NCBI RefSeq assembly: GCF_001428385.1
Contig: NZ_LMSK01000003.1
Location: forward strand, 386,986-450,985
DNA from: Rhodanobacter sp. Soil772
GTDB taxonomy: Bacteria; Pseudomonadota; Gammaproteobacteria; Xanthomonadales; Rhodanobacteraceae
Length of the DNA: 64,000 nucleotides
Direction of reading: 5' to 3'
In this document: positions 4,591 through 24,154 of the stretch, piece after piece
Layout: each line of letters opens with the position of its first letter
Position numbering within the stretch: the stretch's first letter is position 1
Position numbers and translations under genes: made by a program
The notes under the pieces: model-generated
Told to the model about the DNA's origin: nothing
The model's input: only the letters and a program-made list of their open reading frames with translations
Databases searched by the model: none

Positions 4591-6104
4591 GTCGGGGTTC
4601 CGGTGGCGGTGGCTGCAGACGGCGCGTAGACCGGCTCGCGCACGCGCAGGGTGAACAGGCCGGCGACCAGCAGGCAGGCACCGCCCAGCGCCAGTGCCCA
4701 GATCGGCTGGTTGTGGAAGCACAGCCGCAGCAGCAGGCCGAGCACGCTGGCGGCGAGCAGCTGCGGGATCACGATGAAGAAATTGAAGATGCCCATGTAG
4801 ACGCCCATCTTCGCCGCCGGCAGGTTGTCCGACAGCAAGGCGTACGGCAGCGACAGGATCGAGGCCCAGGCGAAGCCCACGCCGACCATCGAGGCGAGCA
4901 GCCACTGCGGGTCGCGGATGACCAGGAACGACAGCAGGCCGGCGCCGCCCAGGCACAGGTTCAGCAGATGGCTGATGCGCAGGCCCCAACGGCGCACCAT
5001 CAGCGGGATCACCACCGCGGCCAGCGCGGCGAAACCGTTGTACGCGGCGAACAGCACGCCGACCCAGTTGGCGCCTTCGTTGTAGAGGGCCGAGCCGACG
5101 TCGGTGGTGCCGTAGATCGTCTGCGTCACGCCCGGCGTGCTGTAGATCCACATGGCAAACAGCGCGAACCACGAAAACAGCTGCACCCAGGCCAGCCGAC
5201 GCATTGCGGCGGGCATGTCGTAGAGATCGCCCATCACCTCGCGCAGCATGCCGCGGCTGCGGGTAAAGCCCAGCCAGACGAACAGCAGGCCGAACACGAG
5301 CAGGCCGCCAGCGAGCAGGTAGACCTCTTTCTCCAGCGCAAAATGCCCGATGGCGAACAGCACCGCGAGGCCGGCCACCAGCAGCGCCAGGCCGGGTCGC
5401 CAGGCTTGCGCCGCGTCCACCGCCGGCTTTTCCGCCACGTTGTCGGTGAACGATTGCAGCTGCGCGGGCGGGTATTCGCGCGTGCGCAGGATCGTCCACA
5501 GCACTGCACCCAGCAGCACCGCGCCGCCGGCGTAGAACGCGTACTTCACCGTGTCGGGGATGCTGCCGTCCGCGGCCACGTTGGCCACGCCGAACCGCGC
5601 CAGGATCCACGGCAGCGCCGAGGCCACCACCGCGCCGATGCCGATGAAGAAGCTCTGCATCGCGTAGCCGGTCGGCCGCTGCTGTGTGGGCAACTGGTCG
5701 CCGACGAAGGCGCGGAACGGCTCCATCGACACGTTGATCGACGCATCCAGGATCCACAGCAGGCCGGCGGCCATCCACAGCACCGGTGCGTTCGGCATCC
5801 ACAGCAGGGCCAGCGAGGCGAACACCGCGCCGATCAGGAAGTACGGCCGGCGCCGGCCCAGCCGGTTCCAGGTGCGGTCGGAGAAGTGGCCGATGATCGG
5901 CTGCACGATCAGCCCGGTCAGCGGCGCGGCGATCCACAGCGCCGGGATGTCGTTCACGTCGGCGCCCAGGGTCTGGAAGATCCGGCTGACGTTCGCGTTC
6001 TGCAACGCGAAGCCGAACTGCAGGCCGAGGAAGCCGAAGCACATGTTCCATATCTGCCAGAACGACAGCGCCGGTTTGTTGTTCAAGAGGGTGCCGTCCT
6101 TCAT
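4587..6104 (-). CDS. SLC45/GPH-type MFS sugar transporter (maltose/maltodextrin)
   Basis: This 505-aa inner-membrane carrier has about 12 hydrophobic segments. The signature loop GHFSDRTWNRLGRRRPYFLIG at about residues 72-92 is characteristic of the SLC45/sucrose-maltose MFS group that serves maltose in Caulobacter and xanthomonads. Its place between two glycosidases, with 4-bp overlaps on both sides, fits import of maltose or short maltodextrins. Sucrose is an alternative substrate for the family but is not supported by the enzymes around it. Confidence 0.9.
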   Translation of the reverse strand: MKDGTLLNNKPALSFWQIWNMCFGFLGLQFGFALQNANVSRIFQTLGADVNDIPALWIAAPLTGLIVQPIIGHFSDRTWNRLGRRRPYFLIGAVFASLALLWMPNAPVLWMAAGLLWILDASINVSMEPFRAFVGDQLPTQQRPTGYAMQSFFIGIGAVVASALPWILARFGVANVAADGSIPDTVKYAFYAGGAVLLGAVLWTILRTREYPPAQLQSFTDNVAEKPAVDAAQAWRPGLALLVAGLAVLFAIGHFALEKEVYLLAGGLLVFGLLFVWLGFTRSRGMLREVMGDLYDMPAAMRRLAWVQLFSWFALFAMWIYSTPGVTQTIYGTTDVGSALYNEGANWVGVLFAAYNGFAALAAVVIPLMVRRWGLRISHLLNLCLGGAGLLSFLVIRDPQWLLASMVGVGFAWASILSLPYALLSDNLPAAKMGVYMGIFNFFIVIPQLLAASVLGLLLRLCFHNQPIWALALGGACLLVAGLFTLRVREPVYAPSAATATGTPT

Positions 6105-8290
6105 GGGGTGGCGTGGCTGGTGGCGAGCGGGGCGATCAGCAGGGCGTGCACGTCGGCCTGGTTCAGGGCGCCATCGCTGCCGCCGCTGCCGCCGGTGTAG
6201 TGGGCGAAGTGGCCGAGGTAGCTCATGTTGAAACCCTCGTCGAGGGTGAACCGGCAGGTGGCGCCCGCCTTGGCGTCGAAGCGGCCCCAGGTGGACTGCT
6301 GCGTGCGCACGCTGTGCGGCATCACGATCGGCAGGCGCTGCTCGTCGCTGCCCGCGCAGCGGATCACCAGCATCTTCATCGCGGCGGTGATGCCGGTGTT
6401 GATCGGGCCGTGATCATTCGCGTAGTCGAGCGCGACGCGATAGTTGCCGCCGGCCGATGCGGTCCACGTGCGCGGCCAGTTTCCGACGACCTTCGCCACC
6501 TCGCCTACGCAGGTGGCGGGACTGTGCAGCGATTCCAGGCCGTGCGCATCCATGCGCGTGGCGCTGAGGCAAGCCAGGCCTGGTTGCCGCGCGAGATGGC
6601 CGTCACCGTCGACGCTGCCGTGAACCTGGCCGTTGAGGTAGAGCTGCACCTTGCCGTCGGTCGTGATCTTCCAGCCGTCGCCGTCGGCACGTAGCAGCGG
6701 TGCGGCAGGCGCGACGGGCGCGTACAGCGGTGCGTTGGTGCGCAGCGGCGCGTCCGGCACCTGCACGGCCTTGAGCGTTACCGTGGTGGCCGTGCCGCGT
6801 GTGCTGGTGCGATCGGCGACGAGCAGGTTGCCGGTGTATTTTTCCGGAAGCTGCAAGGTGATCCGGCGGTCGCGTAGGTCGAGCGTGATCGACCTGCGCT
6901 GGCCGAACAGCATCGGCACCAGCGCGGTGGGCAGCTTCGGCTCCACCCGGCCGTCTTCGCCGAGACCGAACACGCCTTCGGTGACCACCGCGAAATAAGC
7001 CGCCACCGACCACAGCTGCCGCGGCGAATTCACCACCGGGCCGCTGAGCTTGCCTTCGTCCACGTGCTGGCCCTGGGTGAGCAGCTCGTAGTTTTCCATG
7101 TTGGAACCGTACAGCGCGGCACCGCGCATCACCGACTCGATCTCGTGCGCGATGCGCGCAGGCTGCTCCGTCATGCGTGCGGCGCGCAACGCGTACGCGC
7201 TGACGAACGGCCAGATCGCGCGGTTGTGGTAGATCGGCTGATCGGAACGCTCGGGCCAGATCACCGGGCTGCCCGCGGGCCAGGTCGGATAGTTCGCCAG
7301 CGCCTGTCGTGCGCGTTCGCCGTCAGCCACGCCGCTGTCGATCGCCAGCGCGATGCCGAGCAGGTCGTAGCTGTCGTAAGGCGTGCCGTCGCCGCCGATG
7401 TAGCTCATGTACATGCCGCGGTCGGCGCGCCAGAAGTGCGCATTGATCGCTCTCTTCAGCGCCGCGGCCTGGCTACGGTAGCCGGCCGCCGCCTTCGTGT
7501 CGTGCCGCCCGTCGGCCCGCGTGGCGGCCAGCTGCAGCGCCTGGTAGTGCAGCACGTTGGTGGACAGCGCATAGGACTGCGCGATGAAGGTCACCTCGTC
7601 CGCGGTCCACGCGGGGTAGCTCTGCTCGCGCCAGTCGAGGAACGAGGTCTCGCCGCGGTACAGGCCGAACGTGGCGTCGAACGCATACTGGCGGTCCTGC
7701 GCCAGGGTGGCGCCGAGCGCCTTGTCGACGTCGCCGGCAAAGGCCTGGTCGCCGAGCAGGTGGCGCGCGCCGAGGAACCACACCACGCGGTCGGTGCTGA
7801 TCGGCCAGCTGCCGCCGGAGCCGGTGTCCTGCATCGCGTACAAGCCCTGCGGCGCGGACGGAACGCGCACGTCGGACAGCTTGAACTTCAGTCCGTTGCG
7901 CGAGCGCGCCGGGTCGAAACGCCACAGGCCCAGGTCGATCGCGTAGGACAGGTCGCGCGTCCATACGTACGGCCACTTCAGGCCGGTCACGAAACACTGG
8001 CAGGGAATCGGCTGGCCGTGGTCGAACGCGCCGTCGCGGATCGCGCTGACCGAATCCAGCGCCAGGTCGTCCTGCGCCATCGCGAACAGGCCGTCGAACA
8101 GCACGCTGGCGGTCTCGCTGCGCAACGGCTGCGCTGCGATCACGCGCTGGCCGTACGGCCACGCCAGCGTGTAGTGGTGCTGCGCGTCGCGGCTGATGGC
8201 GACGTGCACGCCATGCCAGTCCAGCCCGTCGTGCCAGGCCGGCGCCGCTGCGCTCGCTGCCAGCGCGGCAGCCAGGACGATGCTCAACAT
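6101..8290 (-). CDS. Secreted six-hairpin (alpha/alpha)6 glycosidase, family uncertain
   Basis: This 729-aa protein has a short signal peptide (MLSIVLAAALAASAAAPA). An (alpha/alpha)6-type catalytic region follows with WTRDLSYAIDLGLW at about residue 110 and repeated W- and D-rich helices (GGSWPISTDRVVWFLGA). A beta-rich C-terminal part ends it. The layout resembles GH15/GH63/debranching-type glycosidases, and the locus suggests action on alpha-glucan ends or branches. It is the first gene of the operon with the carrier and a GH13 enzyme. The only in-frame ATG (8290) lacks a good ribosome site. The strong site upstream serves an 18-codon frame that ends across this ATG (see 8284-8337). Confidence 0.78.
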   Translation of the reverse strand: MLSIVLAAALAASAAAPAWHDGLDWHGVHVAISRDAQHHYTLAWPYGQRVIAAQPLRSETASVLFDGLFAMAQDDLALDSVSAIRDGAFDHGQPIPCQCFVTGLKWPYVWTRDLSYAIDLGLWRFDPARSRNGLKFKLSDVRVPSAPQGLYAMQDTGSGGSWPISTDRVVWFLGARHLLGDQAFAGDVDKALGATLAQDRQYAFDATFGLYRGETSFLDWREQSYPAWTADEVTFIAQSYALSTNVLHYQALQLAATRADGRHDTKAAAGYRSQAAALKRAINAHFWRADRGMYMSYIGGDGTPYDSYDLLGIALAIDSGVADGERARQALANYPTWPAGSPVIWPERSDQPIYHNRAIWPFVSAYALRAARMTEQPARIAHEIESVMRGAALYGSNMENYELLTQGQHVDEGKLSGPVVNSPRQLWSVAAYFAVVTEGVFGLGEDGRVEPKLPTALVPMLFGQRRSITLDLRDRRITLQLPEKYTGNLLVADRTSTRGTATTVTLKAVQVPDAPLRTNAPLYAPVAPAAPLLRADGDGWKITTDGKVQLYLNGQVHGSVDGDGHLARQPGLACLSATRMDAHGLESLHSPATCVGEVAKVVGNWPRTWTASAGGNYRVALDYANDHGPINTGITAAMKMLVIRCAGSDEQRLPIVMPHSVRTQQSTWGRFDAKAGATCRFTLDEGFNMSYLGHFAHYTGGSGGSDGALNQADVHALLIAPLATSHATP

Positions 8291-8422: not shown

Positions 8423-8477
8423 GCATGGTAGATAGCGTCGCACTGCAGCAACCAGCCCATGCATACGTATTCATGGG
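8423..8477 (-). promoter_or_regulatory. Operator and -10-like element for the glycosidase-carrier-amylase operon
   Basis: On the minus strand TGAATACGTATGCA (8473-8460) is centred in a 22-bp near-perfect palindrome (8456-8477) with a central CG, as in LacI-family operators. After 29 nt comes TACCATGC (8430-8423), a -10-like box. The same arrangement precedes the TonB receptor. The remainder of 8291-8576 holds no gene. Confidence 0.7.
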
Positions 8478-8576: not shown

Positions 8577-10133
8577 TCAGCGCAGCTCGACCACCACCAA
8601 CCCCTGCACCGGCACAGTAACCTCGAACTTGCCGTTGCTCACCTTCATCAATTCCGGCACGGCCAGCTTGCCGGCTTCGCGCAGCTGGGCGATCTGTTCG
8701 CGGCTGGGGGAGTCGGGGCGGCCCATGCGGTCGAACGCGGCGACGGCGTTGCCATGGGTTTCGTCCACGCGCCACACGGTGGCGTGGGCACCGGCGGGCA
8801 GGTGTCGCACGTCGATGCTGAAGTGCTTCGGCGTGCCGACGGGTTCGCCGGGCGTGTAACTGGCGGTGTTGCCGACGGGCGGAGCGTAGTTCCACAGCGC
8901 GATGACCACGCTGCCGTCGTCGCGGCGGGTGGCCAGGGCGGAGTCGGAATCCACCGCGAGGCGCTGGTCGCCCAGCTTGTGCAGCATCGCGAACGCGTTG
9001 AACGCGGGCTTGGGAATGCGGTTGGCGGCGATCAGGCCGAAGCCGCCGTAGAACGGATTGCGTACAATGCCCTGTTCCTCGAATACGTCGGAGAACGACC
9101 AGTAGCTCATCGCCTCGACCTTGCCGGCGCACAGACGAATGGTGTTGGCGAGCCACGGCCCCATGAACACGGTGTCGGTGACGTTGGGCAGGTTCGCGTA
9201 GCTGGCGTTGTACTCGCTGAAGATGAGCGGCATGTGCGGGTAGGGCGAGGCGGCGATTTCCTTGTGCACCTTGTCCACCGCACGGCAGACCATGTCGGCG
9301 CGCGGAATCTTCTCGCTGGTGCGGAACACGTTGTCGGCGGTGTCGTCGCCGTAGACATGCGTGCTGACGAAATCGACCGGCACGTTGTTCTTGTGCGTGT
9401 GTGCGAGGAAGTCGGTGGCCCACGCGGCCTGCGCGGTGGACGGGCCGCCCACGCGGATGCGCGGATTCACCGCCTTGAGCGCGCGCACGGTGTGGTCGTA
9501 CAGGGTGAAGTAGGTGGACTGCTGCGGCTTGCCGGCCCAGAAGCCGATGTTCGGCTCGTTCCACACCTCGAAGTACCAGCTGGCGACTTCGTCGATGCCG
9601 TAGCGCTCGACCAGGTGTTGCGCCAGCGCGCCGATCATCGCGTCCCATTCGGCGTAGTCCTTCGGCGGCGCGACGTTCGGGCGGTACCAGAACGCCTGCA
9701 GCGCGGCCGGGTCGGAAGTCAGCTCCGGCGGCATGAAGCCGAGTTCGACGAACGGCTTGAAGCCGTGCTCGAGCAGGCCGTCGTAGATCTGGTCGACGTA
9801 GGAGAAGTTGTAGGAAATCTTCCCCTGCGCGTCGCGCTGCACCAGGCCCACGTCGTGGTCGAGGATGCCGTGGAAGCGGATGTAGCCGACGCCGGTGGCC
9901 TGGTGCACGGCGTCCAGATCCTTGCGGTAGTCGTCGCGCAACGCGAGCGAGGCGCGACCGGAGCCGAGCATGTGTTCCCAGAAATGTGGGAAGGGCGTGC
10001 CCTGCGCGCTGGCGTCGATACGCAGGCGGGTGGTGGTCGCTGCGGGCGGCGCGGCGCTGGCCATACTGGTGAACAGCAGGGCGGCGGTGCAAACGGCCAG
10101 GGCCAGGTTTCGTAACCGTGCGGAAAAAGTCAT
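8577..10133 (-). CDS. Secreted GH39 glycoside hydrolase (beta-xylosidase-like)
   Basis: This 518-aa protein has a signal peptide ending near ASA. The clan GH-A/GH39 features are visible: acid/base Glu in WYFEVWNEPN and nucleophile Glu in LIFSEYNASY, followed by a beta-sandwich C-terminus. GH39 enzymes are mainly beta-xylosidases or alpha-L-iduronidases, so the gene is an odd member of an alpha-glucan locus. I chose the ATG at 10133 because a hydrophobic signal sequence follows it; an upstream ATG at 10181 would lie inside the operator palindrome. The gene appears to be its own transcription unit behind the 32-bp palindrome. Confidence 0.88.
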   Translation of the reverse strand: MTFSARLRNLALAVCTAALLFTSMASAAPPAATTTRLRIDASAQGTPFPHFWEHMLGSGRASLALRDDYRKDLDAVHQATGVGYIRFHGILDHDVGLVQRDAQGKISYNFSYVDQIYDGLLEHGFKPFVELGFMPPELTSDPAALQAFWYRPNVAPPKDYAEWDAMIGALAQHLVERYGIDEVASWYFEVWNEPNIGFWAGKPQQSTYFTLYDHTVRALKAVNPRIRVGGPSTAQAAWATDFLAHTHKNNVPVDFVSTHVYGDDTADNVFRTSEKIPRADMVCRAVDKVHKEIAASPYPHMPLIFSEYNASYANLPNVTDTVFMGPWLANTIRLCAGKVEAMSYWSFSDVFEEQGIVRNPFYGGFGLIAANRIPKPAFNAFAMLHKLGDQRLAVDSDSALATRRDDGSVVIALWNYAPPVGNTASYTPGEPVGTPKHFSIDVRHLPAGAHATVWRVDETHGNAVAAFDRMGRPDSPSREQIAQLREAGKLAVPELMKVSNGKFEVTVPVQGLVVVELR

Positions 10134-10181
10134 GGCGGGATCCTGTTCGACGGTCCGGAGCGGGCCGGGCGAGGCCTGCAA

Positions 10182-10324: not shown

Positions 10325-12418
<2,094 letters not shown>

Positions 12419-12446
12419 TCAGGAAACCTGGAACAGCCGGCCGGCC

Positions 12447-14825
12447 CTACATGGCGATCGTGATGTGCGCGGCGCGCGCTGCGGCCACCCGTACCCAGGT
12501 GACGTCGCCGTAGCGGTCGTGGCCGCGGGCCCAGCCTTCGCCGCCGCTGTGCTGCAGGGCGTCGAGGTCGGCGAAGGCTTTCAGCTGGCCGACGCTGGCG
12601 GCCGCGGCTCCATGGACCTTCAGCAGGTAGAAGCGCAGCGCCGGCTTGAAGCTGCCGCTGACGGCGCCGAGTTCCAGCTGGATCGCGTGGGCGCGGCGCT
12701 GCGCCGACAGCGGCTGCAGAAAGTACGCGCCGTGCTCGTAGTCGTAGCTGCTGCCGTCGTCGTCGTAGTAGTCGAACGTGCTGCGCTGCGCGGCGGGGAA
12801 CACGTCGACGTCGAGCTGGGTCAGCGGCTGCTCGCCCACGTAATCCTCGGGCGGCCGGGTCGGGATGATCGCGCCGTCGCGGACGAACAGCGGGATGTCG
12901 CTCCACGTCTTGCTGTCGATCGCCAGGCGGATGCTGCGGCCACCTTCGTAGACCTTGCCGCTGAACCAGTCGGTCCAGCGCCCGGCGGGCAGGTAGATGT
13001 CCTTCGCGGTCTGGCCCTGTACCACCACCGGCGAGGCCAGCAGCCAGTCGCCGAACAGCCACGAGTCGACGTCGTTGCGCACGTTCGGATCATCCGGCCA
13101 GTCGAACAGCAGCGGGCGCACCAGGCCGACGCCGGTGGCGCGGCGCGTGTGCTCGTAGCTGTAGATGTAGGGAATCAGCGCGTAGCGCAGGCGGATCGCC
13201 GCGGTGGCGGCCTTCTCCGCGACCGGGCCGTACACCCACGGCTGGCGCTTCTGGCCGAGCTCGCCGTGCACGCGGAAGATCGGCGTGAATGCGCCGAACT
13301 GGATCCATCGCGTATAGTTCTCCGGCGTCGGCGTGCCGTCCTTGAAACCGCCGCCGTCCATGCCCCACTGCATCGCGCCCACGTTGATCGCGCTGAGCAT
13401 GCGCGCGCGCTGGCCCGCCATGCTGACGAAACCGGTGGGGATGTCGCCGGACCACAGGCCATAGGCGTAGCGCTGCGAGCCCAGCCAGAAGTTGCGGTTG
13501 ATCGACCACACGCGCTGGTTCGAGACGCCGCGCTGGCTGTCGTAAAGCGCGCGCTGCATGTTCATGAACTCGGTATCGCTGCCGGTGGTGTCCGCCTCGT
13601 CGTTCCACCAGCCCACGATGCCGTCGTCGTAGCCGTACTTGACCGCCAGCTTGCCGAACCAGGCGCGCGCGGCAGGTAAATCGAAGTCGATGTTCTTCAC
13701 CGGCTTGTGCGAGAAATAATCGTCGCTGACTTCTTCGCCAGGCACCCAGAAACCGTGCGCGCTGGCGTAGCGTCCTTCCACCGTGTCGACGTGGATGCGC
13801 GGCTTCATGATGCCGGTCAGCTTGATCCCGCGGGCATCCATCTGTTTCTTCAAGGCGCCGCTGGGGCCGTCGGGGAATTTGGTCGGGTTCCAGCGGAACT
13901 CGCCGTAGTCGTCCTCGCCCCACGCCTTCCAGTCGAAGTCCAGCGTGATGTTGTCGATCGGGATGTGCTTGGCGCGATAGGTGTCGACGATCTGCAGCAA
14001 CTCTTTCTGATCGATGCCCCACTGGCTGTTGGTGAAGCCCATCGCCCATTTCGGGAACAGTGGCGTGTGGCCGCTGAGCTGGGCCAGCGCGCCGAACAGC
14101 TGCGTCGGCGTGCCGAGCAGGATATAGACGTCCGTATCCTTGCGCGGGCTGGTTGTGCCGATCGTGCCGGGCTGCAGCGTGAACGTGGCGCCGTCGCTGT
14201 CCAGCAGCACGCCGTAGCCGGCGCTGCTCCACACGAACGGTGCGCCGGCATGGCCTTGCTCGCCGGCGCTGGCCACCTGCTCGCCGCTGCGCAGCATGCC
14301 GGCGGAAGCGTCTTCGGTGGCGTTGTAGCCGCCGATGCCGTACAGCGCGTCGTCGGCGGCGTGCTGCGCCTTCAGCTTGCCGTGGCGCAGGGCATCGACG
14401 TCGATGCGCAGCAGCGTGCGTTGCCGTGCGTCGTCGATGCGCAGCTGGCGATGCTGTCGATCCCAGTGGACCGAGGCAGCGGCGGAAGCGAGGCTCGCGC
14501 CGTCGGCGTTCTGTGTGCCGCGTACCTGCGCGAAGTGCGTCGGTGCGGCGGCGGGGTCGAGCACCAGTGCGGGCGTGCCGGCATGGCGGCCGGGTTCGAA
14601 ATGCACGCGCACGATGCCGGGCGCGATGAAGTGGACGTCCAGCCGGTCGGCACCGAAGTCGATCGTGATGGCGTGGTCGGCGAGTTGGGCCATGGGAGAT
14701 GCCTGTGCAGTCTGCGCGGGGACGGCCGCAGCGATGCCGCCTGCCGGAGCCAGGGCGAGGCCAAGCCACAGCCAGGCGGCCAGGGCCGGGCCGGGTTTTG
14801 CGGTGCGGGTGGGGGGGATGGTCAT
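12447..14825 (-). CDS. Secreted GH31 alpha-glucosidase
   Basis: This 792-aa protein has an N-terminal signal/anchor (AAWLWLGLALAPAGGIAAA). An N-terminal beta-sandwich, a (beta/alpha)8 barrel and C-terminal beta domains follow, as usual in GH31. The nucleophile is probably D409 in GWWNDEAD, and the acid/base Asp lies in WSGDI. The family releases glucose or acts on alpha-1,6 and alpha-1,4 bonds; here maltodextrin ends are the likely substrate. It is 25 bp from the next GH13 gene upstream and is probably co-transcribed with it. Confidence 0.92.
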   Translation of the reverse strand: MTIPPTRTAKPGPALAAWLWLGLALAPAGGIAAAVPAQTAQASPMAQLADHAITIDFGADRLDVHFIAPGIVRVHFEPGRHAGTPALVLDPAAAPTHFAQVRGTQNADGASLASAAASVHWDRQHRQLRIDDARQRTLLRIDVDALRHGKLKAQHAADDALYGIGGYNATEDASAGMLRSGEQVASAGEQGHAGAPFVWSSAGYGVLLDSDGATFTLQPGTIGTTSPRKDTDVYILLGTPTQLFGALAQLSGHTPLFPKWAMGFTNSQWGIDQKELLQIVDTYRAKHIPIDNITLDFDWKAWGEDDYGEFRWNPTKFPDGPSGALKKQMDARGIKLTGIMKPRIHVDTVEGRYASAHGFWVPGEEVSDDYFSHKPVKNIDFDLPAARAWFGKLAVKYGYDDGIVGWWNDEADTTGSDTEFMNMQRALYDSQRGVSNQRVWSINRNFWLGSQRYAYGLWSGDIPTGFVSMAGQRARMLSAINVGAMQWGMDGGGFKDGTPTPENYTRWIQFGAFTPIFRVHGELGQKRQPWVYGPVAEKAATAAIRLRYALIPYIYSYEHTRRATGVGLVRPLLFDWPDDPNVRNDVDSWLFGDWLLASPVVVQGQTAKDIYLPAGRWTDWFSGKVYEGGRSIRLAIDSKTWSDIPLFVRDGAIIPTRPPEDYVGEQPLTQLDVDVFPAAQRSTFDYYDDDGSSYDYEHGAYFLQPLSAQRRAHAIQLELGAVSGSFKPALRFYLLKVHGAAAASVGQLKAFADLDALQHSGGEGWARGHDRYGDVTWVRVAAARAAHITIAM

Positions 14826-14850
14826 GGCGGGCTCCTCGCGGGTCGCGGGT

Positions 14851-16398
14851 TCAGTCCAGGATGGCGCTGGCGTAGGGCGGCAGTGTCAGCCGGCCGCGCC
14901 GCAGCGCGGTGCCGGCACGACTATGCCGCAGCACGTGGCGGAAACGGGTGTCACCCAGCGGCACCTGCTGCGGCTGGCCGGACAGGTTGTGCAGCACCAG
15001 CACGCGGCTGCCGGCGTCGTCGAGCTGCCACGCGGCGATGTGCGGATTGGCCAGCGGGGGTGCGGTGAGCGTGCCGTCGCGCAGCGCGCCGATCTCACGG
15101 CGCCAGCCGATGAGCATGGCGTAGTAGTGCAGCAGCGAATCGCCGGCCTGCTGCTCGGCCTCCACCGAAACGTCGGGGCCGTCGCCGGCACTGAACGTTT
15201 TCCAGCGCGTCTCGCCTGCGCCGCGCGGATCGCGGTGCCAGCGCATCGGCTCGCGCAGGTCCGGGTCGGGCTTCTTCCCGCGCATGCCCAGCTCCTCGCC
15301 GTAGTAGACGAACGGCTGGCCGGGCAGGGTGAGCAGCATCGCGGCGGCCATGCGCATGTGCTGCGCGTTGCCGCCGAGCTGGCTCATCACGCGCTCCTGG
15401 TCATGGTTGGACAGGAACGGCGCGTCCACGCCGGATTTGCCGGTGACCTTGCGGTAGACGGCATCGGTGTGTGCCAGCAGTGCGCCGAGATTGCCGGCGC
15501 GTTCGCTACGCGCGCTGTCGATCAGCTGCGTCGCCAGCGGAAAGTCGAACACCGCGTCGAGCGGCTTGAAGTACGGCGCCAGCTCGTCGGCGGAGTCGCG
15601 GGTCACCTCTCCGACGACGTAGGCGCCGGGCGCGACCGCATCCAGACCCCGGCGGAATTCGGCCCACCAGGCGAGGTTCTTCTGCAGCGTGAGCGGATTG
15701 TCGGCATCCGCCTTGAAGTCGTAGTAGATGTGCTGGGCGGCGTCGAGGCGGAAGCCGTCGACGCCTTTCCTCAACCAGTACTGGCCGAGCTTGACCATTT
15801 CCTTGCGCACCGCCGGCGTGTCGTAGTCGAGGTCCGGCATGTTGCTGGAGAAGTCGCCCAGGTAGTGTGCCGTGCCGAGCGCGTGCCAGGCCTGCGAGCC
15901 GGCGGCGTCCGCGGCGTGCAGGTCGGTGTGCGGGCCGGCCCAGCTGTACCAGTCGTGATGTGGATCGGCGGGGTCGCGCGCGGCCTCGAACCAGGGATGC
16001 CGGTCGCTGGTGTGGTTGATCACCAGGTCGATGATCACCTTGATGCCGCGCTGGTGCGCCTCGCGTAGCAGGCGCTGGAAATCGGCCATCGTGCCGTACT
16101 GCGGGTTGATCGCGTAGTAGTCGGTGACGTCGTAGCCGTGGTAGCCGGGCGAGGGATTGATCGGCATCAGCCAGATGCCGCTGACGCCGAGCGACTTGAG
16201 GTAGTCGAGCTTCGCGGTGACGCCGTTCAAGTCGCCGGTGCCGTCACCGTCGGTGTCGTACCAGCTGCGCACGAAGATCTCGTACCAGACGCCGGAGGGT
16301 GCCGCTGCGACAGGAGCGACGGGCGCGGCCGCGCCCGTCGCGGAACTGCCCAGCGCGAGCAGGGCGACGAGCAGGGATGCAGCGATGCAGCGGATCAT
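14851..16398 (-). CDS. Secreted GH13 alpha-glucan hydrolase
   Basis: This 515-aa protein starts at ATG 16398, with GGAGG six bases upstream, and has a signal peptide ([25 protein letters not shown]). The GH13 motifs are intact: D219 in GFRLDAA, E264 in VVGEV and D333 in LSNHD. Barrel regions [16 protein letters not shown] and DLVINHTS follow the oligo-1,6-glucosidase/alpha-glucosidase pattern. The export signal suggests a periplasmic alpha-glucosidase or amylase. The next gene upstream, the halogenase, ends 35 bp away. Confidence 0.92.
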
Positions 16399-16433
16399 GG
16401 CTGGCCTCCGGCTACGGTGGAACGCCGCAGCGC

Positions 16434-17951
16434 TCATGCGGCAAGGCCACCGGCCGCACGCGCCACGAATTCATGGTGCGGCGGTAGCGTGTTCTTTGCG
16501 CGGCCGACCAAGGTGCGGATGTCGGCGAGGAAACCGTCCAGCTGCTCCGTGGTCAGCGCGTCGGCCAGCGGGTGGTGGCGCTGCGGCTCGATGCGTTGGC
16601 CCAGCAGTACCTGCAGCCAACCGGTTTCGGTGAACAGCTCGTCGGCCTCGCGGAAGATCATGCCGGTGCGGCGGAACAGTTCGATGCGGCGCGCCAGCGC
16701 CGGCGGGATTTCCATCGCGCCGCACTGCTGCCAGAACGGCGTGTCGGTGCGCTCGGTGGCCTTGTAGTGCAGGATCAGCAAATCGCGCACGCGCTCGTAC
16801 TCGAAGCGGGTCTGGCGGTTGTACTCGTCCACCAGCTGTTGCTCGCAGTGGCGGTCGGGGAACATCGCCAGCAGGCGACTGATGCCGGACTGCACCAGGT
16901 GGATGCTGGTCGATTCCAGCGGCTCCATGAAGCCGGCGGCCAGGCCCAGCGCGAGGCAGTTGCGGCTCCACGCCAGTCGACGCATGCCGGTGACGAAGCG
17001 CAGCGGGCGCGGATCGCCCAGCGCTTCGGTTTCCAGGTTCGCCAGCAGTTGGGCGGCGGCTTCGTCGTCGCTGATGAAGCGGCTGCAGTACACATGGCCG
17101 TTGCCTACGCGGTGGCGCAGCGGGATGCGCCACTGCCAGCCGGCCGTGCGTGCGCTGGCCTGGGTGTACGGGCGCATCGGGCCGCCCGGGGCGCTGGCCA
17201 CCGCCAGTGCGCGGTCGCAGGGCAGCCAGTGCTGCCAGTTTTCGTAGCCGGTGTTCAGCGTGCCTTCGATCAGCAGGCCGCGGAAGCCGGAGCAGTCGAT
17301 GAAGAAGTCGCCCTCGACGATCTCGCCGTTGTCCAGCTGCAGCGATTCGATGAAGCCGTCCTCGGCGTGCAGGCGCACGTCGACCACCTTGCCTTCGGTG
17401 CGCTGTACCGCGCCCGGCGCGATGTGTTCGCGCAGATACTGCGCGTAGCGCGAGGCGTCGAAATGATAGGCGTAGCGGATGCCGCCGAGCGGACTGTCCG
17501 GCACGGCTTCCAGCGGCGCGAAGCGGTTCTCGGCGGCGGCCGCGGCGTTGAGCGAGTACGCCCACAGGTCCGGCGTATCCGCGCGGCTGCGCTCCTGCAC
17601 GGCGCGCAGCCAGTAGTGGTGGAACGGCGTCAGTCCCAGCGGCAGGCCGAGGTCGCCGAAGGCGTGCAGGTAGGAGTCGCCGAGGCGGCCGAAGCCGTTG
17701 AGCTGCACGCCCAGTTTGTAGGTGCCGTGGGCGAAGCGCAGCATGTCGTCCTCGTCGATGCCGAGGAAGCGGTTGATGTGGCGGATCTGCGGGATGGTGG
17801 CCTCGCCCACGCCGACGGTGCCGATCTCGGCCGATTCGACCAGGCGTATGGCAACACCCGCTCCGAGCGCCTTCGCGAGCAGCGCCGCCGCCATCCAGCC
17901 GGCGGTGCCGCCGCCGACGATCACGATGCGGCGGATGCGGGGATCGTTCAT
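16434..17951 (-). CDS. Flavin-dependent tryptophan-halogenase-family protein
   Basis: This 505-aa enzyme carries every hallmark of flavin-dependent halogenases: the GGGTAGW FAD motif at residues 13-19, catalytic K79, the WxWxIP motif at 272-277 (WQWRIP) and E346 in the GFMEPLES segment. K79, W272/W274 and E346 have the same numbers as in PrnA. It should form hypohalous acid from FADH2, O2 and halide and direct it to an aromatic ring. No biosynthetic cluster or flavin reductase is nearby. Instead the gene follows a TonB receptor, a pairing common in Caulobacter and xanthomonads where the substrate is unknown. Confidence 0.9.
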
Positions 17952-18016
17952 GTCATGACTCCTCGGCGTCCTGTCTTCGCTGCCGCGCCGCCGTCGCTGC
18001 GGGTGCGCGGATCATG

Positions 18017-18051
18017 AAAAAAAAGCCCCGCCGGAAAACACACAGCGGGGC
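18017..18051 (-). terminator. Rho-independent terminator after the TonB receptor gene
   Basis: On the minus strand GCCCCGC (18051-18045), a 13-nt loop and GCGGGGC (18031-18025) are followed by eight T residues (18024-18017). It lies 28 bp past the receptor stop. It would end or dampen transcription before the halogenase gene, so receptor and downstream enzymes can be made in different amounts. Confidence 0.88.
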
Positions 18052-18078
18052 ACCCTGGGGAGGTAATGTCGATACGAC

Positions 18079-20973
18079 TTACTGGAACTTGTACGAGACG
18101 CCGATATCGTAGCGGCGGCCGTAACGCTCCCACGTCAGCACCTGGCGCGGGTCGTCGTTCTGGTAGGTGATGAAGGTCTTGTTGGACAGGTTGGAGCCCT
18201 GCACGATGAAGGTCAGGCCCTTCAGGCTGCCGCTGTCGATGCTGTAGCTGACCTGGGCATCGTAGGTGCTGCCGCCCTGGATGGTCTGCTCGATGCGGGA
18301 CGCGCTGATGCCCGACACCTCGCCCAGGAAGCTCGAACGGTAGCTGTCGCTGATGCGGGCCTCGAAGCCGCTGTGCTGGTAGTACAGCGTGGCGTTGGCG
18401 ACCCACTTCGACAGGCCCGGCACGGTGATCGGCGTGCTGTTGCCGGCGAACACCAGCGAGCTATTGGTGCGGTTGCCGGTGAGGATCGTGCCGAAGCCGT
18501 CGAGTGCCGGCGTGACCAGGTTGAACGGCAGGTTCAAGGTCACCTGGCCGCCCTTCACGTAGCCGTGGCCGTCGTTGGTCGGACCGGAGACGATGCCCAG
18601 CGGCGTGCCCAGCTGGGCCTGCTGCGTCGGCGTCAGGCCGAACGGCAGGAACGAGCTGAAGTCGTACAGGAAGGCTGCGTTCGGATTGATGTAATCCTTC
18701 AGCTTGAGGTAGTAGCCCGACAGCGCGATGTAGCCACCGCCGCCGCTGCGGCAAATGTCCGAATTCTTCGCATCGCTGGCGTTGCACTCGTAGCCGTTGC
18801 CGCCGGAGAAGTAGTGCTCGTAGCTGACGTTGTAGTTGTCGGCCATGGTCGGCTTGAGCTTGGCGTTGCCGCCCGAGGCGCTGAAGTACGCCTGGCTCGG
18901 ATCGGTGTTCTGCAGATGGGTGAAGTTACCGCTCACCCCCAGGCTGGCGTTCATCTGATCCATGCGCGGGCGGGCCAAAGTACGTGCGGCGCTGACGCGC
19001 AGGTCGTCGTTGTCGCCGAACCCGAAGATCAGGTTGGCGCTGGGCAGGACCTTGGTATAGCTGGTGCTGCCGACCACCGGGATCAGCGTGATCGCGTTGC
19101 CGGTGATCGCGCTGCCCGGCGCCACGCGTTCGCCGGTCGAACGCTGCGAGGTGTGCTGTGCCTGCACGCCGACGTTGCCGCGCAGGCTGACACCGCCGAG
19201 GTAGGTGTCGAGGTTGAACTGCAGGTACGGGGTCAGTGTCTTTTCGCGCACGTTCCAGTTCGGCGGCATCGCCAGCGACGAGCCGAAGGTAGGCACCTGC
19301 TGCAAGGTGCCGTTGTCGATCAGGTCGAACGGGTTGTAGCAGAGCTGGTTGGCGATGCCCATCCACGACAGCGGGGAGCACGACGTACCGCTGAACGGCG
19401 CGGTGGTGACCGCGTTACCGCCGCTGATGGTGCCACCGCCCAAAGTGAGGAAGCTCTGGTCGATGTGGTAGCTCTTGTCGCGGGTGCTGTGCGCCACGCC
19501 GAACTCCATGCTGGAGAACGGACCGCTGGAGAAGCTGCGCTCGGCGCTCAGGCGCAGGTTGGCCAGGTAGTCCACGGTGTGCGGCGCATTGATGAAGCCG
19601 GCCTGCACCACGTCGTTGCCGCCGCCCCAGCCCTGCGGATCGGTCAGCACGACGCCGTTGGTGTAGTCCAGCGACGGGGTGAGGTAGAGCAGCCCGTTGC
19701 TGCGCTCGACGAAGCCGAGGGTGTCGGTGGCGCCGTTGGCCGGAGTGAAGCCGGTGCCGGAGTAGCTTTCGAGGTTGATGTCGCGGCGGGTGGCGCGCGA
19801 GTAGTTCGCGTCGAGGTCGGCCGTCCAGTCCTCGTTGATGGTGAACTTGTTGTCCCAGTTGAAGTTGTAGACCCGGGCGCTGGTGCTGTTGTAGTCGTTG
19901 CGGATCACCGGCTTGACGCTGCCGTAGGTGCCGTTGGTGATCATGCCGTTCTGCACGGTGCCGCCCGGCTGCAGTTGCGCGGAGCCCCAGAACAGCGGGA
20001 ACTCCATGCCCTTGGCCTGCTGCACTTCCTTGAAGTTGTCGTAGGTGAGGTCGACGACGCCGTTGTACCAGTCGTTCGGCTGCCACTGCACGGTGGCCAG
20101 CACGCCGCGCCGCTTCATCGTGTCGGAGATGCCGTAGTTCTTCGCGCCGCCGACCACGGCGTTGCCGTTGGCGTCGGTCGGATAACCCCATGGCGCCTGG
20201 TGCTGGATCTGCGCGGGGTTGGATTCCATGTCCACGCCCAGGGTGACGCCGAGGGTGTGGTCGGCGAACTGGTGCACCCACACGCCGTTGACATTGTAGC
20301 CCTTGTCGCTGACGCCGGGGCCACTCGCCAGCTGGGACATGTCGTTCCAGATGTAGTGGGCATTCAGCGCCGCCTCGGGGCCGCTCTTTTCCAGCGGGCG
20401 GATGGTGTGCATGTCGACGGTGCCGGTGAGGCCCTGGCCGATCAGGTTGGCCTGCGGGGTCAGGTGCACCACCACGTTGTCGAACCAGCTCGACGGGTAC
20501 TGGTCGAACTGCACGTCGCGGTTGTTCGAGGTCGAAACCTGCTGGCCGCCGTTGACCAGCGCGGTGGAGAAATCCGGGCCGAGGCCGTGGATGGTCAGCA
20601 CCTGCGGGCGACCGCTGACGGTCTGCACGGCGAGGCCGGGCAGGCGGCCGAGGGTATCGGCGATGCTCACGCCGGGCAGCTTGCCGACCTGTTCGGCCGA
20701 TACCGCCTCGACGATGCTGCTGGCATTGCGCTTGAGCGCGGTGGAGTTCTCGATGCTGCTGACGAAGCCGTTCACCTCGACGGCTTCCAGCTTCTTCGTC
20801 TTGTGCTTGCCGTCGGTGTCTTTGCTGTTCTTGTCGGTCGACGACGGCTGGGCCTGGTCTTGCGTGTCCTGCTGCTGACTGGCCGAGGGTGCGGTCCCGG
20901 CATAAGCCGTGGCGCAGACGCCAAGGCACACCGATGCAATCGCCATCGCCAGCACGTTATGTTTCAGAACCAT
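18079..20973 (-). CDS. TonB-dependent outer-membrane receptor (maltodextrin uptake)
   Basis: This 964-aa outer-membrane protein starts at ATG 20973 behind a GGGAGGGGA ribosome site. It has a signal peptide ending AYAG, then a low-complexity Q/D/K-rich linker. The plug domain follows (about residues 65-190: LEAVEVNGF, GKLPGVSIADTLGRLPGL, ALVNGGQQ). A large 22-strand-type barrel ends in YDIGVSYKFQ. It resembles the Caulobacter/Xanthomonas oligosaccharide receptors of the MalA type. Its own operator-promoter (21091-21141) and terminator make it a separately controlled unit that heads the locus. Confidence 0.92.
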   Translation of the reverse strand: MVLKHNVLAMAIASVCLGVCATAYAGTAPSASQQQDTQDQAQPSSTDKNSKDTDGKHKTKKLEAVEVNGFVSSIENSTALKRNASSIVEAVSAEQVGKLPGVSIADTLGRLPGLAVQTVSGRPQVLTIHGLGPDFSTALVNGGQQVSTSNNRDVQFDQYPSSWFDNVVVHLTPQANLIGQGLTGTVDMHTIRPLEKSGPEAALNAHYIWNDMSQLASGPGVSDKGYNVNGVWVHQFADHTLGVTLGVDMESNPAQIQHQAPWGYPTDANGNAVVGGAKNYGISDTMKRRGVLATVQWQPNDWYNGVVDLTYDNFKEVQQAKGMEFPLFWGSAQLQPGGTVQNGMITNGTYGSVKPVIRNDYNSTSARVYNFNWDNKFTINEDWTADLDANYSRATRRDINLESYSGTGFTPANGATDTLGFVERSNGLLYLTPSLDYTNGVVLTDPQGWGGGNDVVQAGFINAPHTVDYLANLRLSAERSFSSGPFSSMEFGVAHSTRDKSYHIDQSFLTLGGGTISGGNAVTTAPFSGTSCSPLSWMGIANQLCYNPFDLIDNGTLQQVPTFGSSLAMPPNWNVREKTLTPYLQFNLDTYLGGVSLRGNVGVQAQHTSQRSTGERVAPGSAITGNAITLIPVVGSTSYTKVLPSANLIFGFGDNDDLRVSAARTLARPRMDQMNASLGVSGNFTHLQNTDPSQAYFSASGGNAKLKPTMADNYNVSYEHYFSGGNGYECNASDAKNSDICRSGGGGYIALSGYYLKLKDYINPNAAFLYDFSSFLPFGLTPTQQAQLGTPLGIVSGPTNDGHGYVKGGQVTLNLPFNLVTPALDGFGTILTGNRTNSSLVFAGNSTPITVPGLSKWVANATLYYQHSGFEARISDSYRSSFLGEVSGISASRIEQTIQGGSTYDAQVSYSIDSGSLKGLTFIVQGSNLSNKTFITYQNDDPRQVLTWERYGRRYDIGVSYKFQ

Positions 20974-21090
20974 GTACTCCCCTCCCACAAAAGGTGTGTC
21001 GCCGTCGATCTCGGTTGTTGGACTCCCCCCGCGCTTTCGTCGGCGACGACCGTCGGCAGGTGCGCCGTCGAGATTTTCGGCGGCGTGTTT

Positions 21091-21141
21091 GCATGGTAGG
21101 CCGGCATTTCCGCAGCGAAGCATTTTCTGCATACGTATTCA
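21091..21141 (-). promoter_or_regulatory. Operator and -10-like element for the TonB receptor gene
   Basis: Minus-strand TGAATACGTATGCA (21141-21128) is followed after exactly 29 nt by TACCATGC (21098-21091). This matches the layout at 8423-8477. It lies in the 434-bp divergent interval 20974-21407, which holds no gene. Confidence 0.7.
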
Positions 21142-21297
21142 TGGTGGGCGCCCCGGCGCGCTTATCGCAGTGCAGCATCGCGTGTCCGGGAGGCGGGTAC
21201 CAGCGGCGCGAGCCGCGGTGCGACTCGGCATTGGCGCGTGACGCATGAACCACCGCCGGCACACCGCGCACGCGGCATGCCGCGACTGCAGCACGAA

Positions 21298-21347
21298 TGA
21301 ATACGTATGCACATCCGTGCTGGTCGCAACGAAGCTGCGGCTAAGCT
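21298..21347 (+). promoter_or_regulatory. Operator and -10-like element for the GH13_23-type gene
   Basis: Plus-strand TGAATACGTATGCA (21298-21311) is followed after 30 nt by TAAGCT (21342-21347). Orientation towards the gene and spacing match the other two copies. The gene starts 61 bp further on. Confidence 0.65.
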
Positions 21348-21407
21348 GATCGGCATTCAACGACGGGCGTCGAATGTGCCCGCCTCATGCTGCGGGGACA
21401 TGTTCAA

Positions 21408-23030
21408 ATGAGTGATGCACCCTGGTGGCGCGGAGCCGTCACCTACCAGATCTATCCGCGCAGCTTCCTGGATACCGATGGCGATGGCGTGGGCGATCTG
21501 CCGGGCATCATCGAGCGGCTCGACTACGTGGCCAGCCTCGGTGTGGACGCGATCTGGATCGCGCCGTTCTTCCGCTCGCCGATGGCGGACTTCGGCTACG
21601 ACATCGCCGACTATCGCGACGTCGATCCGCTGTTCGGCACGCTGGCCGACTTCGACGCGCTGCTGGCGAAGGCGCATCGCCTCGGCCTGAAGGTGATGAT
21701 CGACCAGGTGCTCAGCCATACCTCGATCGAGCATGCGTGGTTCAGGGAAAGCCGCGAGAACCGCGACAATCCGAAGGCCGACTGGTACGTGTGGGCCGAC
21801 GCGCGCGAGGACGGCAGCGCGCCGAACAACTGGCTGTCGCTGTTCGGCGGCTCGGCCTGGCAGTGGGAGCCGCGCCGCGGCCAGTACTACCTGCACAACT
21901 TCCTCGCCTCGCAGCCGGACCTGAATTTCCATCATCCCGACGTGCGCGCGGCCATTCTCGACAGCGTGCGCTTCTGGCTGGACAAGGGCGTGGACGGCTT
22001 CCGCCTGGACGCGATCAACTTCTGCTTCCACGACCGCGAGCTGCGCGACAACCCGCCCAAGCCGAAGGAGAAGCGCGTGGGCCGCGGCTTCAGCCCGGAC
22101 AACCCGTACGCGTTCCAGTACCACTACTACAACAACACGCGGCCGGAGAACCTGGCTTTCCTCGGCGAGCTGCGCGCGCTGATGGACGGCTACCCCGACG
22201 TGGCCACGCTGGGCGAAATTTCCTCGGAGGATTCGCTGGCGACGATGGCCGAGTACACCCGCCCCGGCCGGCTGCACATGGGTTACAGCTTCGAGCTGCT
22301 CACCGACGACTTCAGCGCCGCGCACATCCGCGGCACGGTGCAGGCGCTGGAAGCGCAGATGACCGACGGCTGGCCGTGCTGGGCGATCTCCAACCACGAC
22401 GTCGAGCGCGTGCTGACGCGCTGGGGCAGGGATCGGCCCTCGCCGCAACTGGCCAACCTGCTCACCGCGATGGTCTGTTCGCTGCGTGGTTCGGTGTGCG
22501 TCTATCAGGGCGAGGAACTGGGCCTGACCGAGGCCAAACTGCCGTACGAATCGCTGCAGGATCCCTACGGCATCGCGTTCTGGCCGCAGTTCAAGGGCCG
22601 CGACGGTTGCCGCACGCCGATGCCGTGGAACGAGGCCGACGCGCATGCCGGCTTCAGCCGCGGCATGCCGTGGCTGCCGGTGCCGCAGGAACACCGCGCG
22701 CTGGCGGTGAGCCGGCAGGATGCCGATCCGCATTCGGTGCTGAACGGTTTTCGCAACTTCATGCATTGGCGCAAATCGCAGCCTGCGCTGCGCTGGGGCG
22801 AGATTGCCTTCATCGACACCGTCGATCCGGTGCTGGCGTTCACCCGCCGTCTGGACGGCCAAACGATACTGGTCGTGTTCAACCTGGCCGACGCCGAAGT
22901 CGAGATCCGCCTGCCTGCCGCATTCGGCAGTGCGCATCCGCTGGAGGGGCACGGCCTGCTTTCCGGCCATTTTCACGGCAACCAGCTGCAGTTGCCTGGC
23001 TATGGCGCCTGCTTCGCCAGCGTGGCGTGA
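21408..23030 (+). CDS. Cytoplasmic GH13_23-type alpha-glucosidase
   Basis: This 540-aa protein lacks a signal peptide and so should act in the cytoplasm. I chose ATG 21408 (GGGGA upstream), giving MSDAPWWRGAVTYQIYPRSF, the standard family start. Catalytic residues are D201 (GFRLDA), E270 (ATLGE) and D331 (ISNHD). The pattern fits xanthomonad XgtA-like alpha-glucosidases, which hydrolyse maltose or transfer its glucose. It is divergent from the TonB receptor with its own copy of the shared operator, and would process sugar brought in by the SLC45 carrier. Confidence 0.92.
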   Translation: MSDAPWWRGAVTYQIYPRSFLDTDGDGVGDLPGIIERLDYVASLGVDAIWIAPFFRSPMADFGYDIADYRDVDPLFGTLADFDALLAKAHRLGLKVMIDQVLSHTSIEHAWFRESRENRDNPKADWYVWADAREDGSAPNNWLSLFGGSAWQWEPRRGQYYLHNFLASQPDLNFHHPDVRAAILDSVRFWLDKGVDGFRLDAINFCFHDRELRDNPPKPKEKRVGRGFSPDNPYAFQYHYYNNTRPENLAFLGELRALMDGYPDVATLGEISSEDSLATMAEYTRPGRLHMGYSFELLTDDFSAAHIRGTVQALEAQMTDGWPCWAISNHDVERVLTRWGRDRPSPQLANLLTAMVCSLRGSVCVYQGEELGLTEAKLPYESLQDPYGIAFWPQFKGRDGCRTPMPWNEADAHAGFSRGMPWLPVPQEHRALAVSRQDADPHSVLNGFRNFMHWRKSQPALRWGEIAFIDTVDPVLAFTRRLDGQTILVVFNLADAEVEIRLPAAFGSAHPLEGHGLLSGHFHGNQLQLPGYGACFASVA

Positions 23031-23065
23031 GACTCGCCATTGCCGCGCGAACACAAGGAACCGGC

Positions 23066-24094: not shown

Positions 24095-24106
24095 CTGGCC
24101 ACCGTT

Positions 24107-24136
24107 GCTCCTCCCCCTGCACGCAGGGGGAGGAGC
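24107..24136. terminator. Symmetric hairpin between convergent genes
   Basis: Fourteen-base perfect arms (GCTCCTCCCCCTGC and its complement) with a 2-nt loop lie between the esterase stop (24094) and the peptidase stop (24155). It could act as a two-way terminator, although it has no T-run. Confidence 0.55.
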
Positions 24137-24154
24137 ATGGCAAGAGCCTCGAAC

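Follow-up and report, generated by a model that had tools for sequence, protein, structure and literature searches.

The window, a stretch of 64,000 nucleotides from Rhodanobacter sp. Soil772, carries what appears to be an intact halogenase of the BrvH/Xcc4156 type, co-regulated within a LacI-controlled alpha-glucan uptake regulon and directed at an indole/tryptophan-type target, a reading that we consider rather probable. The enzyme type is already known; what would be new is the tie of such a halogenase to an alpha-glucan regulon by an operator. The features on which we draw are as follows.

2911..4590, minus strand: GH13 protein (start approximate)
4587..6104, minus strand: MFS sugar transporter-like protein
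6101..8290, minus strand: glycoside hydrolase-like protein (Pfam matches all subthreshold)
8460..8473, no strand: operator-like palindrome TGCATACGTATTCA, ahead of the hydrolase-like gene at 6101-8290 (minus strand)
8577..10181, minus strand: GH39 family protein
10325..12394, minus strand: GH13 neopullulanase/maltogenic-amylase-like protein
12447..14825, minus strand: GH31 alpha-glucosidase-type hydrolase
14851..16437, minus strand: GH13 alpha-amylase family protein with SusG_C domain, start overlapping the halogenase stop by 4 bp
16434..17951, minus strand: flavin-dependent halogenase, BrvH/Xcc4156-like, 505 amino acids, with K79, W272QWRIP277, and E346 intact
18017..18051, minus strand: terminator-like hairpin and U8 in the receptor-halogenase gap, conserved in relatives
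18079..20973, minus strand: TonB-dependent receptor (TIGR01782), reading frame open to 21132, likely start at 20973
21128..21141, no strand: operator-like palindrome TGCATACGTATTCA, 155 bp ahead of the likely receptor start
21298..21311, no strand: operator-like palindrome TGAATACGTATGCA, between the divergent receptor and GH13 genes
21387..23030, plus strand: divergent GH13 protein, sharing its operator region with the receptor

A sequence-only reading of this region had placed the halogenase in a carbohydrate locus, and the GH13, GH31, neopullulanase-like GH13, GH39, and MFS genes bear this out. No biosynthetic gene was recognized among the operon genes scanned. The receptor harbors Plug and TonB beta-barrel domains and matches NCBIfam TIGR01782 with 454 bits (cut-off, 310); a search against solved structures gave no match. 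The methionine at 20973, where the earlier reading had also ended the region, is followed by a stretch that by eye resembles a signal peptide. Having found a TIGR01782 receptor together with alpha-glucan hydrolases and a LacI-type operator, we infer from locus and operator that the receptor is of the maltodextrin type.

The halogenase itself matches PF04820 (Trp_halogenase) with 614 bits against a cut-off of 21. The residues on which the sequence-only reading had relied are all in place: the FAD motif GGGTAGW (residues 13 to 19, following the GxGxxG pattern), K79, WQWRIP at 272 to 277, and E346. Both K79 and E346 were unchanged in 162 of 162 aligned relatives (108 of 108 in a smaller set), as were the two tryptophans of the WxW motif in the same 162 sequences. 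Inner-pocket residues P54, K79, Y94, H96, F98, E346, F440, and W445 were identical in 160 to 162 of these rows, unlike the pocket rim, which is variable. Furthermore, dN/dS of the halogenase ranged from 0.14 to 0.27 in five comparisons and was lower than that of the receptor in all five, indicating that the gene is under purifying selection. No signal sequence was seen by eye, and the protein is thus probably cytoplasmic.

Among solved chains, the best matches were 9luq (560 bits), Xcc4156 (6y1w, 486 bits), and BrvH (6frl, 477 bits); no paper accompanying PDB entries 9luq, 9lu2, and 9ltb was found. Loop 2 aligns without gaps to Xcc4156, and loop 1 does so to BrvH. Identity as a tryptophan halogenase (PrnA, RebH, or PyrH) was rejected, since these enzymes scored at most 276 bits and their long tryptophan-covering loop is missing. 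The PrnA likeness proposed earlier therefore stands for the catalytic residues and their numbering and falls for the sequence and the loop lengths, which match BrvH and Xcc4156. By this comparison the enzyme is of the BrvH/Xcc4156 type, apart from the tryptophan halogenases, and its short loops predict an open substrate site, a call made from the alignment with loop limits taken from excerpts of the literature. According to the available portions of the two papers, BrvH and Xcc4156 brominate indole derivatives in vitro, and what BrvH and the Xcc halogenases act on in nature was not known at publication (PMC5945002, PMC7336383), so that the earlier statement that such halogenases have no known substrate holds for the nearest characterized enzymes. 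In the same portions, the BrvH authors doubt that indole is the natural substrate because BrvH has low specific activity on it (PMC5945002), and Xcc4156 had no activity on free tryptophan (PMC7336383). Halide and substrate preferences of the window halogenase would be transferred by analogy from these relatives, at 477 to 486 bits.

What appears to link the halogenase to sugar is the palindrome TGMATACGTATKCA, a 10-mer of which occurs in 54 of 59 divergent receptor promoter regions (51 of 56 without second copies). The 3.57-Mb genome contains four sites at one mismatch or fewer and none of the reversed pattern; they lie at alpha-glucan genes and, for the fourth, upstream of a sugar porter gene and the LacI gene that comes after it. 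Across 2.78 Mb of loci we counted 141 sites, versus 0 to 1 for each of 12 shuffled palindromes. At two mismatches or fewer, the site was present in 58 of 83 loci combining halogenase, receptor, and GH13/GH31/GH97 hydrolases and in 5 of 46 halogenase loci without these hydrolases; many of the 25 alpha-glucan halogenase loci that lack it are from Alpha- and Betaproteobacteria. Eighteen near full-length LacI relatives (58 to 79%) were found in the sampled loci, 13 of them in operator-bearing and 5 in operator-free ones. A common palindromic operator and a matching LacI gene, as seen here at the sequence level, are the marks of a LacI-controlled alpha-glucan regulon. Additionally, 12 halogenase genes of relatives carry the operator at most 400 bp upstream, and it also precedes halogenases located elsewhere than behind a receptor (L054, L067, L068, L071, L082, and L163). 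With the operator directly upstream of these 12 genes, the halogenase seems to belong to the regulon rather than to be a passenger, and comparative sequence supports its regulation by sugar. Eight GH144-type loci were also searched for a second operator, and four to five of them contained AAACGTTT-like words.

The earlier reading also held that a terminator separates the expression of receptor and halogenase. The hairpin is real: it folds into a stem of 10 pairs that has a single bulge and runs into eight U's (z, -2.97), that is, the G+C-rich stem and U-run of an intrinsic terminator. A simple terminator scan did not list it, and terminator-like sites were no more frequent than in shuffles (8 versus 9.0). 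Of 54 intergenic regions from orthologous loci, a looser scan for a stem and T-run picked out 39, or 36 of 51 once three second copies were set aside; some of the 15 left unscored have imperfect or U-less stems. Minimum free energies of the intergenic regions were weak against single-base shuffles (median z, -1.6; 29 of 51 under -1.5), and the terminator claim is based on the stem and T-run scan, not on these z-scores. However, the hairpin is also kept where a GH13 gene and no halogenase follows the receptor (L089, L091, and L092), and no promoter was found, by eye or by scan, in the 65 nt between the T-run and the halogenase start codon; a sigma-70 scan of positions 10000 to 26000 gave 0 sites against 1.5 expected and is uninformative in so G+C-rich a genome. 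Taken with the 4-bp overlap with the next amylase gene and the operators of halogenases that follow no receptor, this argues against separate expression and points to joint control of receptor and halogenase.

Of 40 such halogenases sampled across the phylum, 37 had a TonB receptor in the same locus, at loci for several glycans. This is the adjacency survey that the sequence-only reading had called for, and it supports the claim made there that halogenase-receptor pairs recur, which they do widely. For Caulobacter, named in that claim, the analysis covered PF04820 matches, which are present in Caulobacter vibrioides. Among the matches listed, no paper describing the pairing was found in openly licensed PMC: PMC8269204 does not mention TonB, and PMC11337851, in the part available, treats phage and Colwellia halogenase transcripts. 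The word TonB does not occur in the main text of the BrvH paper (PMC5945002), so that receptor pairing and sugar control are not treated there under that name, and neither TonB nor gene cluster occurs in the Xcc4156 paper (PMC7336383). Halogenase lineages cluster by locus type, and sister loci harbor SapC, Cupin_8, and DUF6445 companion genes. Four loci that are otherwise alike (L088, L089, L091, and L092) cleanly lack the halogenase, indicating that the locus does not need it, and in L095 the halogenase is the only gene of a relative's operon that is foreign. The tree of the halogenase conflicts with that of the receptor (p-AU, 1.5e-7); the correlation of their pairwise distances (r = 0.34) lies inside the 0.28 to 0.67 range of ten gene pairs and is uninformative alone.

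We propose the following mechanism. PF01613, which we take to be the family of PrnF-type reductases, has no match in the whole genome, which extends the earlier remark that the window holds no flavin reductase; FADH2 would be supplied by a non-dedicated reductase. As in the family at large, FADH2, O2, and a halide, probably bromide where it is present, would yield hypohalous acid, which would pass to K79/E346 and halogenate an indole-type ring in the open pocket. A LacI-type repressor encoded 7 to 8 kb outside the window may act through the TGMATACGTATKCA operators, as comparative sequence suggests, so that production of the halogenase would coincide with that of the receptor and amylases. The hairpin behind the receptor gene probably keeps the receptor strongly expressed and the genes downstream less so. 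The most likely target would be an indole or tryptophan group carried by a molecule bigger than free tryptophan and in use at several loci for glycan uptake. A bolder version, in which Proteobacteria run a sugar-induced halogenation whose LacI-controlled enzyme marks indole or tryptophan on a protein or peptide uptake partner, is quite doubtful; it would fit the companion genes, the grouping of lineages according to locus type, and a pocket that is invariant inside and varies at its rim. To our knowledge, post-translational halogenation has not been described in bacteria except in peptide antibiotics.

Other explanations were weighed against co-regulated halogenation. The enzyme might produce a small secreted halogenated indole or phenol during growth on glycans, for instance against competitors. 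The in vitro bromination of indole derivatives would suit this, and induction by sugar would make release coincide with feeding, but the lack of a recognized biosynthetic gene in the scanned operon and the doubts of the BrvH authors about indole make it unlikely. Loss of halogenase function in vivo, with a role as another FAD-dependent oxidase or monooxygenase, is a distinctly poor prospect: the clade has no known product and the genome no PF01613 reductase, yet the catalytic lysine and glutamate and both WxW tryptophans persist in every aligned relative, and both BrvH and Xcc4156 carry out bromination in vitro.

We find it very unlikely that the halogenase modifies an aromatic residue of the neighboring TonB receptor or its precursor and thereby tunes uptake. 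The frequent co-location with receptors for several glycans would favor such a target, as would the pocket, which the BrvH and Xcc4156 authors, in the excerpts available, liken to that of MibH, an enzyme halogenating tryptophan within a peptide (PMC5945002, PMC7336383). However, halogenase-positive loci conserve 329 columns of the receptor alignment to 90% or more; of these, a single threonine column was kept in three or fewer of six halogenase-negative rows, and no aromatic column was lost in this way (47 positive rows were compared with the six, of which L090 is only a contig end). Moreover, halogenase-adjacent receptors belong to different families (TIGR01782 versus PF25183), the trees disagree, and only the halogenase is foreign in L095. 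Neither the loci without halogenase nor tree congruence gave support to the receptor as substrate, and it was rejected. Least probable of all is a neutral passenger riding behind receptor genes; its clean absence from four orthologous loci and its exchange between loci would agree with this, whereas purifying selection, the invariance of K79 and E346, and the operators ahead of halogenases that follow no receptor speak against it.

Under co-regulated halogenation, the operator names the inducer to add, the repressor to delete, and the naturally halogenase-free relatives to compare. Sugar control would indicate when to look for the target, turning an open question into a mass spectrometry experiment. 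A halogenase annotation by itself is then no sign of a natural-product cluster.

Compared with known enzymes, the window halogenase shares its short substrate loops with BrvH of Brevundimonas sp. BAL3, in which K83 and E349 correspond to K79 and E346. BrvH differs in being metagenome derived; according to the available portion of its description it has an adjoining second halogenase gene, as do many loci sampled here. Xcc4156 of Xanthomonas campestris belongs to the same family and, in the text available, has an open site; loop 1 of the window halogenase is six residues longer. PrnA, RebH, and PyrH have the catalytic residues in common, with K79 and E346 numbered alike in PrnA as far as our excerpts go. 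MibH, as treated in the excerpted BrvH and Xcc4156 comparisons, combines PF04820-type chemistry on tryptophan with an open site but has a lantibiotic peptide as its substrate. Chain 5uao, presumably MibH, the peptide tryptophan halogenase, scored only 190 bits. TonB receptors within carbohydrate loci are known from Caulobacter (MalA) and Xanthomonas (CUT loci), which, like the present locus, combine the receptor with alpha-glucan hydrolases and a LacI regulator. What the present locus would add to these systems is a halogenase as a member of the regulon, with its own operator in some relatives.

The halogenase gene lies directly behind a TonB receptor gene and is followed by a series of carbohydrate genes, arranged as follows.

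16434-17951, minus strand: halogenase, 505 amino acids, Pfam PF04820 (Trp_halogenase) match of 614 bits
18079-20973, minus strand: TonB receptor with profile matches to TIGR01782, upstream of the halogenase
Downstream of the halogenase: GH13, GH31, neopullulanase-like GH13, GH39, hydrolase-like, MFS and another GH13 gene
Divergent from the receptor: a further GH13 gene

The halogenase stop and the start of the first GH13 gene overlap by 4 bp; even if that gene starts at its following in-frame ATG, some 40 bp later, the two genes are closely spaced. The named relatives that share this gene order belong to Rhodanobacter and other Rhodanobacteraceae. The GH39 gene (8577-10181), from a family known for beta-linked sugars, sits within this alpha-glucan operon.

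The sequence-only reading had described a complete halogenase, and the motifs it named are indeed present in the 505-amino-acid ORF: GGGTAGW (residues 13 to 19), K79, WQWRIP (272 to 277), and E346. K79 and E346 are found in all 108 halogenases from 80 loci (rows below 150 bits or 380 amino acids excluded) and in all 162 of a wider set (rows below 600 bits or 400 amino acids excluded). Of the 108, ten have A and one has G at the last position of WxWxIP. The inner pocket (P54, K79, Y94, H96, F98, E346, F440, and W445) is identical in 160 to 162 of the 162 rows and W114 in 156; much of the rim (100 to 109, 428 to 437, and 441 to 443) differs from locus type to locus type. The positions that would contact the ring were inferred from comparison with BrvH and RebH. 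Halogenase dN/dS was 0.14 to 0.27 against five relatives, in all five cases lower than that of the receptor. The best solved chain was 9luq (560 bits), labelled "Tryptophan halogenase," for which we found no describing publication; Xcc4156 (486 bits) and BrvH (477 bits) scored above the tryptophan halogenases (at most 276). The gene encodes a genuine halogenase of an established type and is under selection; its BrvH/Xcc4156-like class is nearly certain. The host genome holds two relatives at E values of 1e-20 or better, its remaining PF04820 matches being weak pieces of one other ORF. Near an equivalent locus, a more distant halogenase (L014:17798-19315; 35% identity) carries WIWDIG in place of WxWxIP. 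In three further loci (L116:7567-8937, L115:4655-6070, and L143:4689-6035), proteins of 450 to 470 amino acids with PF04820 matches of only 46 to 91 bits adjoin full halogenases and represent a divergent third type.

A palindrome, TGMATACGTATKCA, lies between the receptor and the divergent GH13 gene, and a 10-mer from it occurs in 54 of 59 such divergent regions (51 of 56 without second copies). The window contains three sites at up to three mismatches versus 0.44 expected. In the whole genome, four sites have at most one mismatch (window 21128, 21298, and 8460, and G000:C3:376988), and the reversed-pattern control gave none even at two. About 70 bp downstream of the fourth site begins a sugar porter gene, and behind that gene lies one for a LacI protein, our candidate regulator. 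The loci compared encode 18 nearly complete proteins related to this LacI (58 to 79% identity), 13 of them in operator-bearing loci, and the LacI at the genome's other halogenase locus has different nearest relatives. Across 172 partly overlapping or duplicate sequences (2.78 Mb), 141 sites were found at up to one mismatch, compared to 0 or 1 for each of 12 shuffled palindromes. At up to two mismatches, the site was present in 58 of 83 loci combining halogenase, receptor, and GH13, GH31, or GH97, versus 5 of the 46 halogenase loci in which such hydrolases are lacking. The 25 site-free alpha-glucan loci, many from Alpha- and Betaproteobacteria (e.g., L039, L043, L045, and L057), show that not every such locus carries this operator. 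In twelve cases, a site (up to two mismatches) lies no more than 400 bp upstream of a halogenase gene, and most of these genes share it with a divergent hydrolase gene; the twelve are those of L054, L067, L068, L071, L082, and L163, plus the second, convergent halogenases in L027, L033, L035, L049, L053, and L072. We regard these sites as the best evidence that the halogenase functions within the alpha-glucan response, and the window halogenase likely belongs to the sugar regulon. Second halogenases convergent with the first, 45 to 55% identical to the window protein, were seen in nine loci (L027, L031, L033, L040, L042, L048, L049, L057, and L073), and in four of these loci (L027, L031, L033, and L049) the operator precedes the second gene.

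The receptor is present at 50% identity or more in 52 of 147 family genomes. By hand count, an adjoining halogenase, on the same strand and no more than 1.6 kb away, is present in 45 and absent in five (G137, G117, G015, G095, and G023), and two (G100 and G063) are cut by contig ends. In four of the five (loci L088, L089, L091, and L092), a GH13 gene directly follows the receptor and the operators are kept; in G023, receptor and halogenase lie apart (L093 and L094). Halogenase presence requires five changes on the receptor tree, or four, as read from the drawn tree, when L090, a contig end, is left out of the negatives; this tree cannot separate loss from gain. In the phylum sample, 61 of 398 genomes had a halogenase match at 1e-50, scoring being limited to three matches in each genome. 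The pairing with TonB receptors, for which a survey had been proposed from sequence alone, held in 37 of 40 phylum loci (exceptions L136, L139, and L143), receptors being detected within the same 13.5 kb with HMMs built here and the loci, several from the same genomes, being picked in steps from listed matches with identities of roughly 45% upward. GH13, GH31, or GH97 was found in 14 of the 40. Among 20 hand-picked halogenases of greater distance, eight had a receptor, two of these in stretches that also contain a nearer halogenase.

Partners vary. The genome's own second halogenase locus (L085) has a PF10091 hydrolase, which we take to be GH144, together with GH1, ABC genes, and a different receptor family; others have GH2 mannosidase and GH92 (L065), GH30 (L081), or GH3 (L084). 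SapC, Cupin_8, and DUF6445 are further partners, possibly of the same function. Genes for SapC (PF07277), Cupin_8 (PF13621), and DUF6445 (PF20043) sit next to the receptor and halogenase genes or separate the two in L128 (4160-8211), L135 (7505-9426), L130, L138, and L142, all loci without a recognised amylase. Locus types are clustered on the tree of 162 halogenases (38 changes versus 72 in shuffles, none of 200 as low), a result helped by near-copies and based on rough labels. A contig labelled Edaphobacter (L041, an Acidobacteriota MAG) shows the receptor-halogenase-GH13 order (receptor 56%, halogenase 64% identity) and is either misbinned or transferred. We found no paper on the pairing in the openly licensed library searched. 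Known TonB-receptor carbohydrate loci include that of MalA in Caulobacter and the CUT loci of Xanthomonas.

The receptor itself was considered as the halogenase target. None of the receptor's aromatic alignment columns follows the presence of the halogenase. The receptor group of the window with L100, L095, and L026 (97*), picked after discordant identities were noticed, does not hold for the halogenase, where it was rejected with p-AU 1.5e-7. Identity to the window in L095 is 82 to 85% for the receptor and the two hydrolase genes behind it but only 66% for the halogenase, a gene-sized exchange. The halogenase moves independently of the receptor, and this, with the lack of any aromatic column that follows it, counts against a receptor target.

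A terminator had been proposed to separate expression of the two genes. The gap does hold a G+C-rich stem of 10 pairs with one bulge and U8 (folding z, -2.97), and of 54 orthologous regions 39 show a stem with T-run (36 of 51 once second copies are removed), its letters differing yet staying complementary; three alphaproteobacterial loci (L039, L040, and L042) are among the 39. In the unscored regions, a strongly folding stem lacking a T-run is seen in L018, L028, and L107 and an imperfect stem with one in L021, while L020 and L030 have little structure. The 39 also include L089, L091, and L092, where a GH13 gene comes directly after the receptor, indicating a property of the receptor 3' end that does not single out the halogenase; its effect would probably be more receptor than enzyme.

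Regarding electron supply, PF01613 flavin reductase had no match in the host genome (99.98% complete), while 13 of 14 control genomes matched; 19 of 40 genus members have it and 21, including the host, do not. The host has three PF00970 matches, and a longer ferredoxin-type protein scores 163 bits for similarity to NAD(P)H-flavin reductase, short of the 230-bit cut-off. We therefore assume that a general reductase serves the enzyme.

Given a candidate inducer, relatives free of the gene, and a candidate regulator, the in vivo target is directly testable. BrvH (PMC5945002) and Xcc4156 (PMC7336383) both have an open substrate site, accept indoles and not free tryptophan, and favour bromide; their authors describe the native substrates as unidentified and propose larger ones, perhaps peptides. 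The window halogenase aligns gap-free with BrvH in the first substrate loop and with Xcc4156 in the second.
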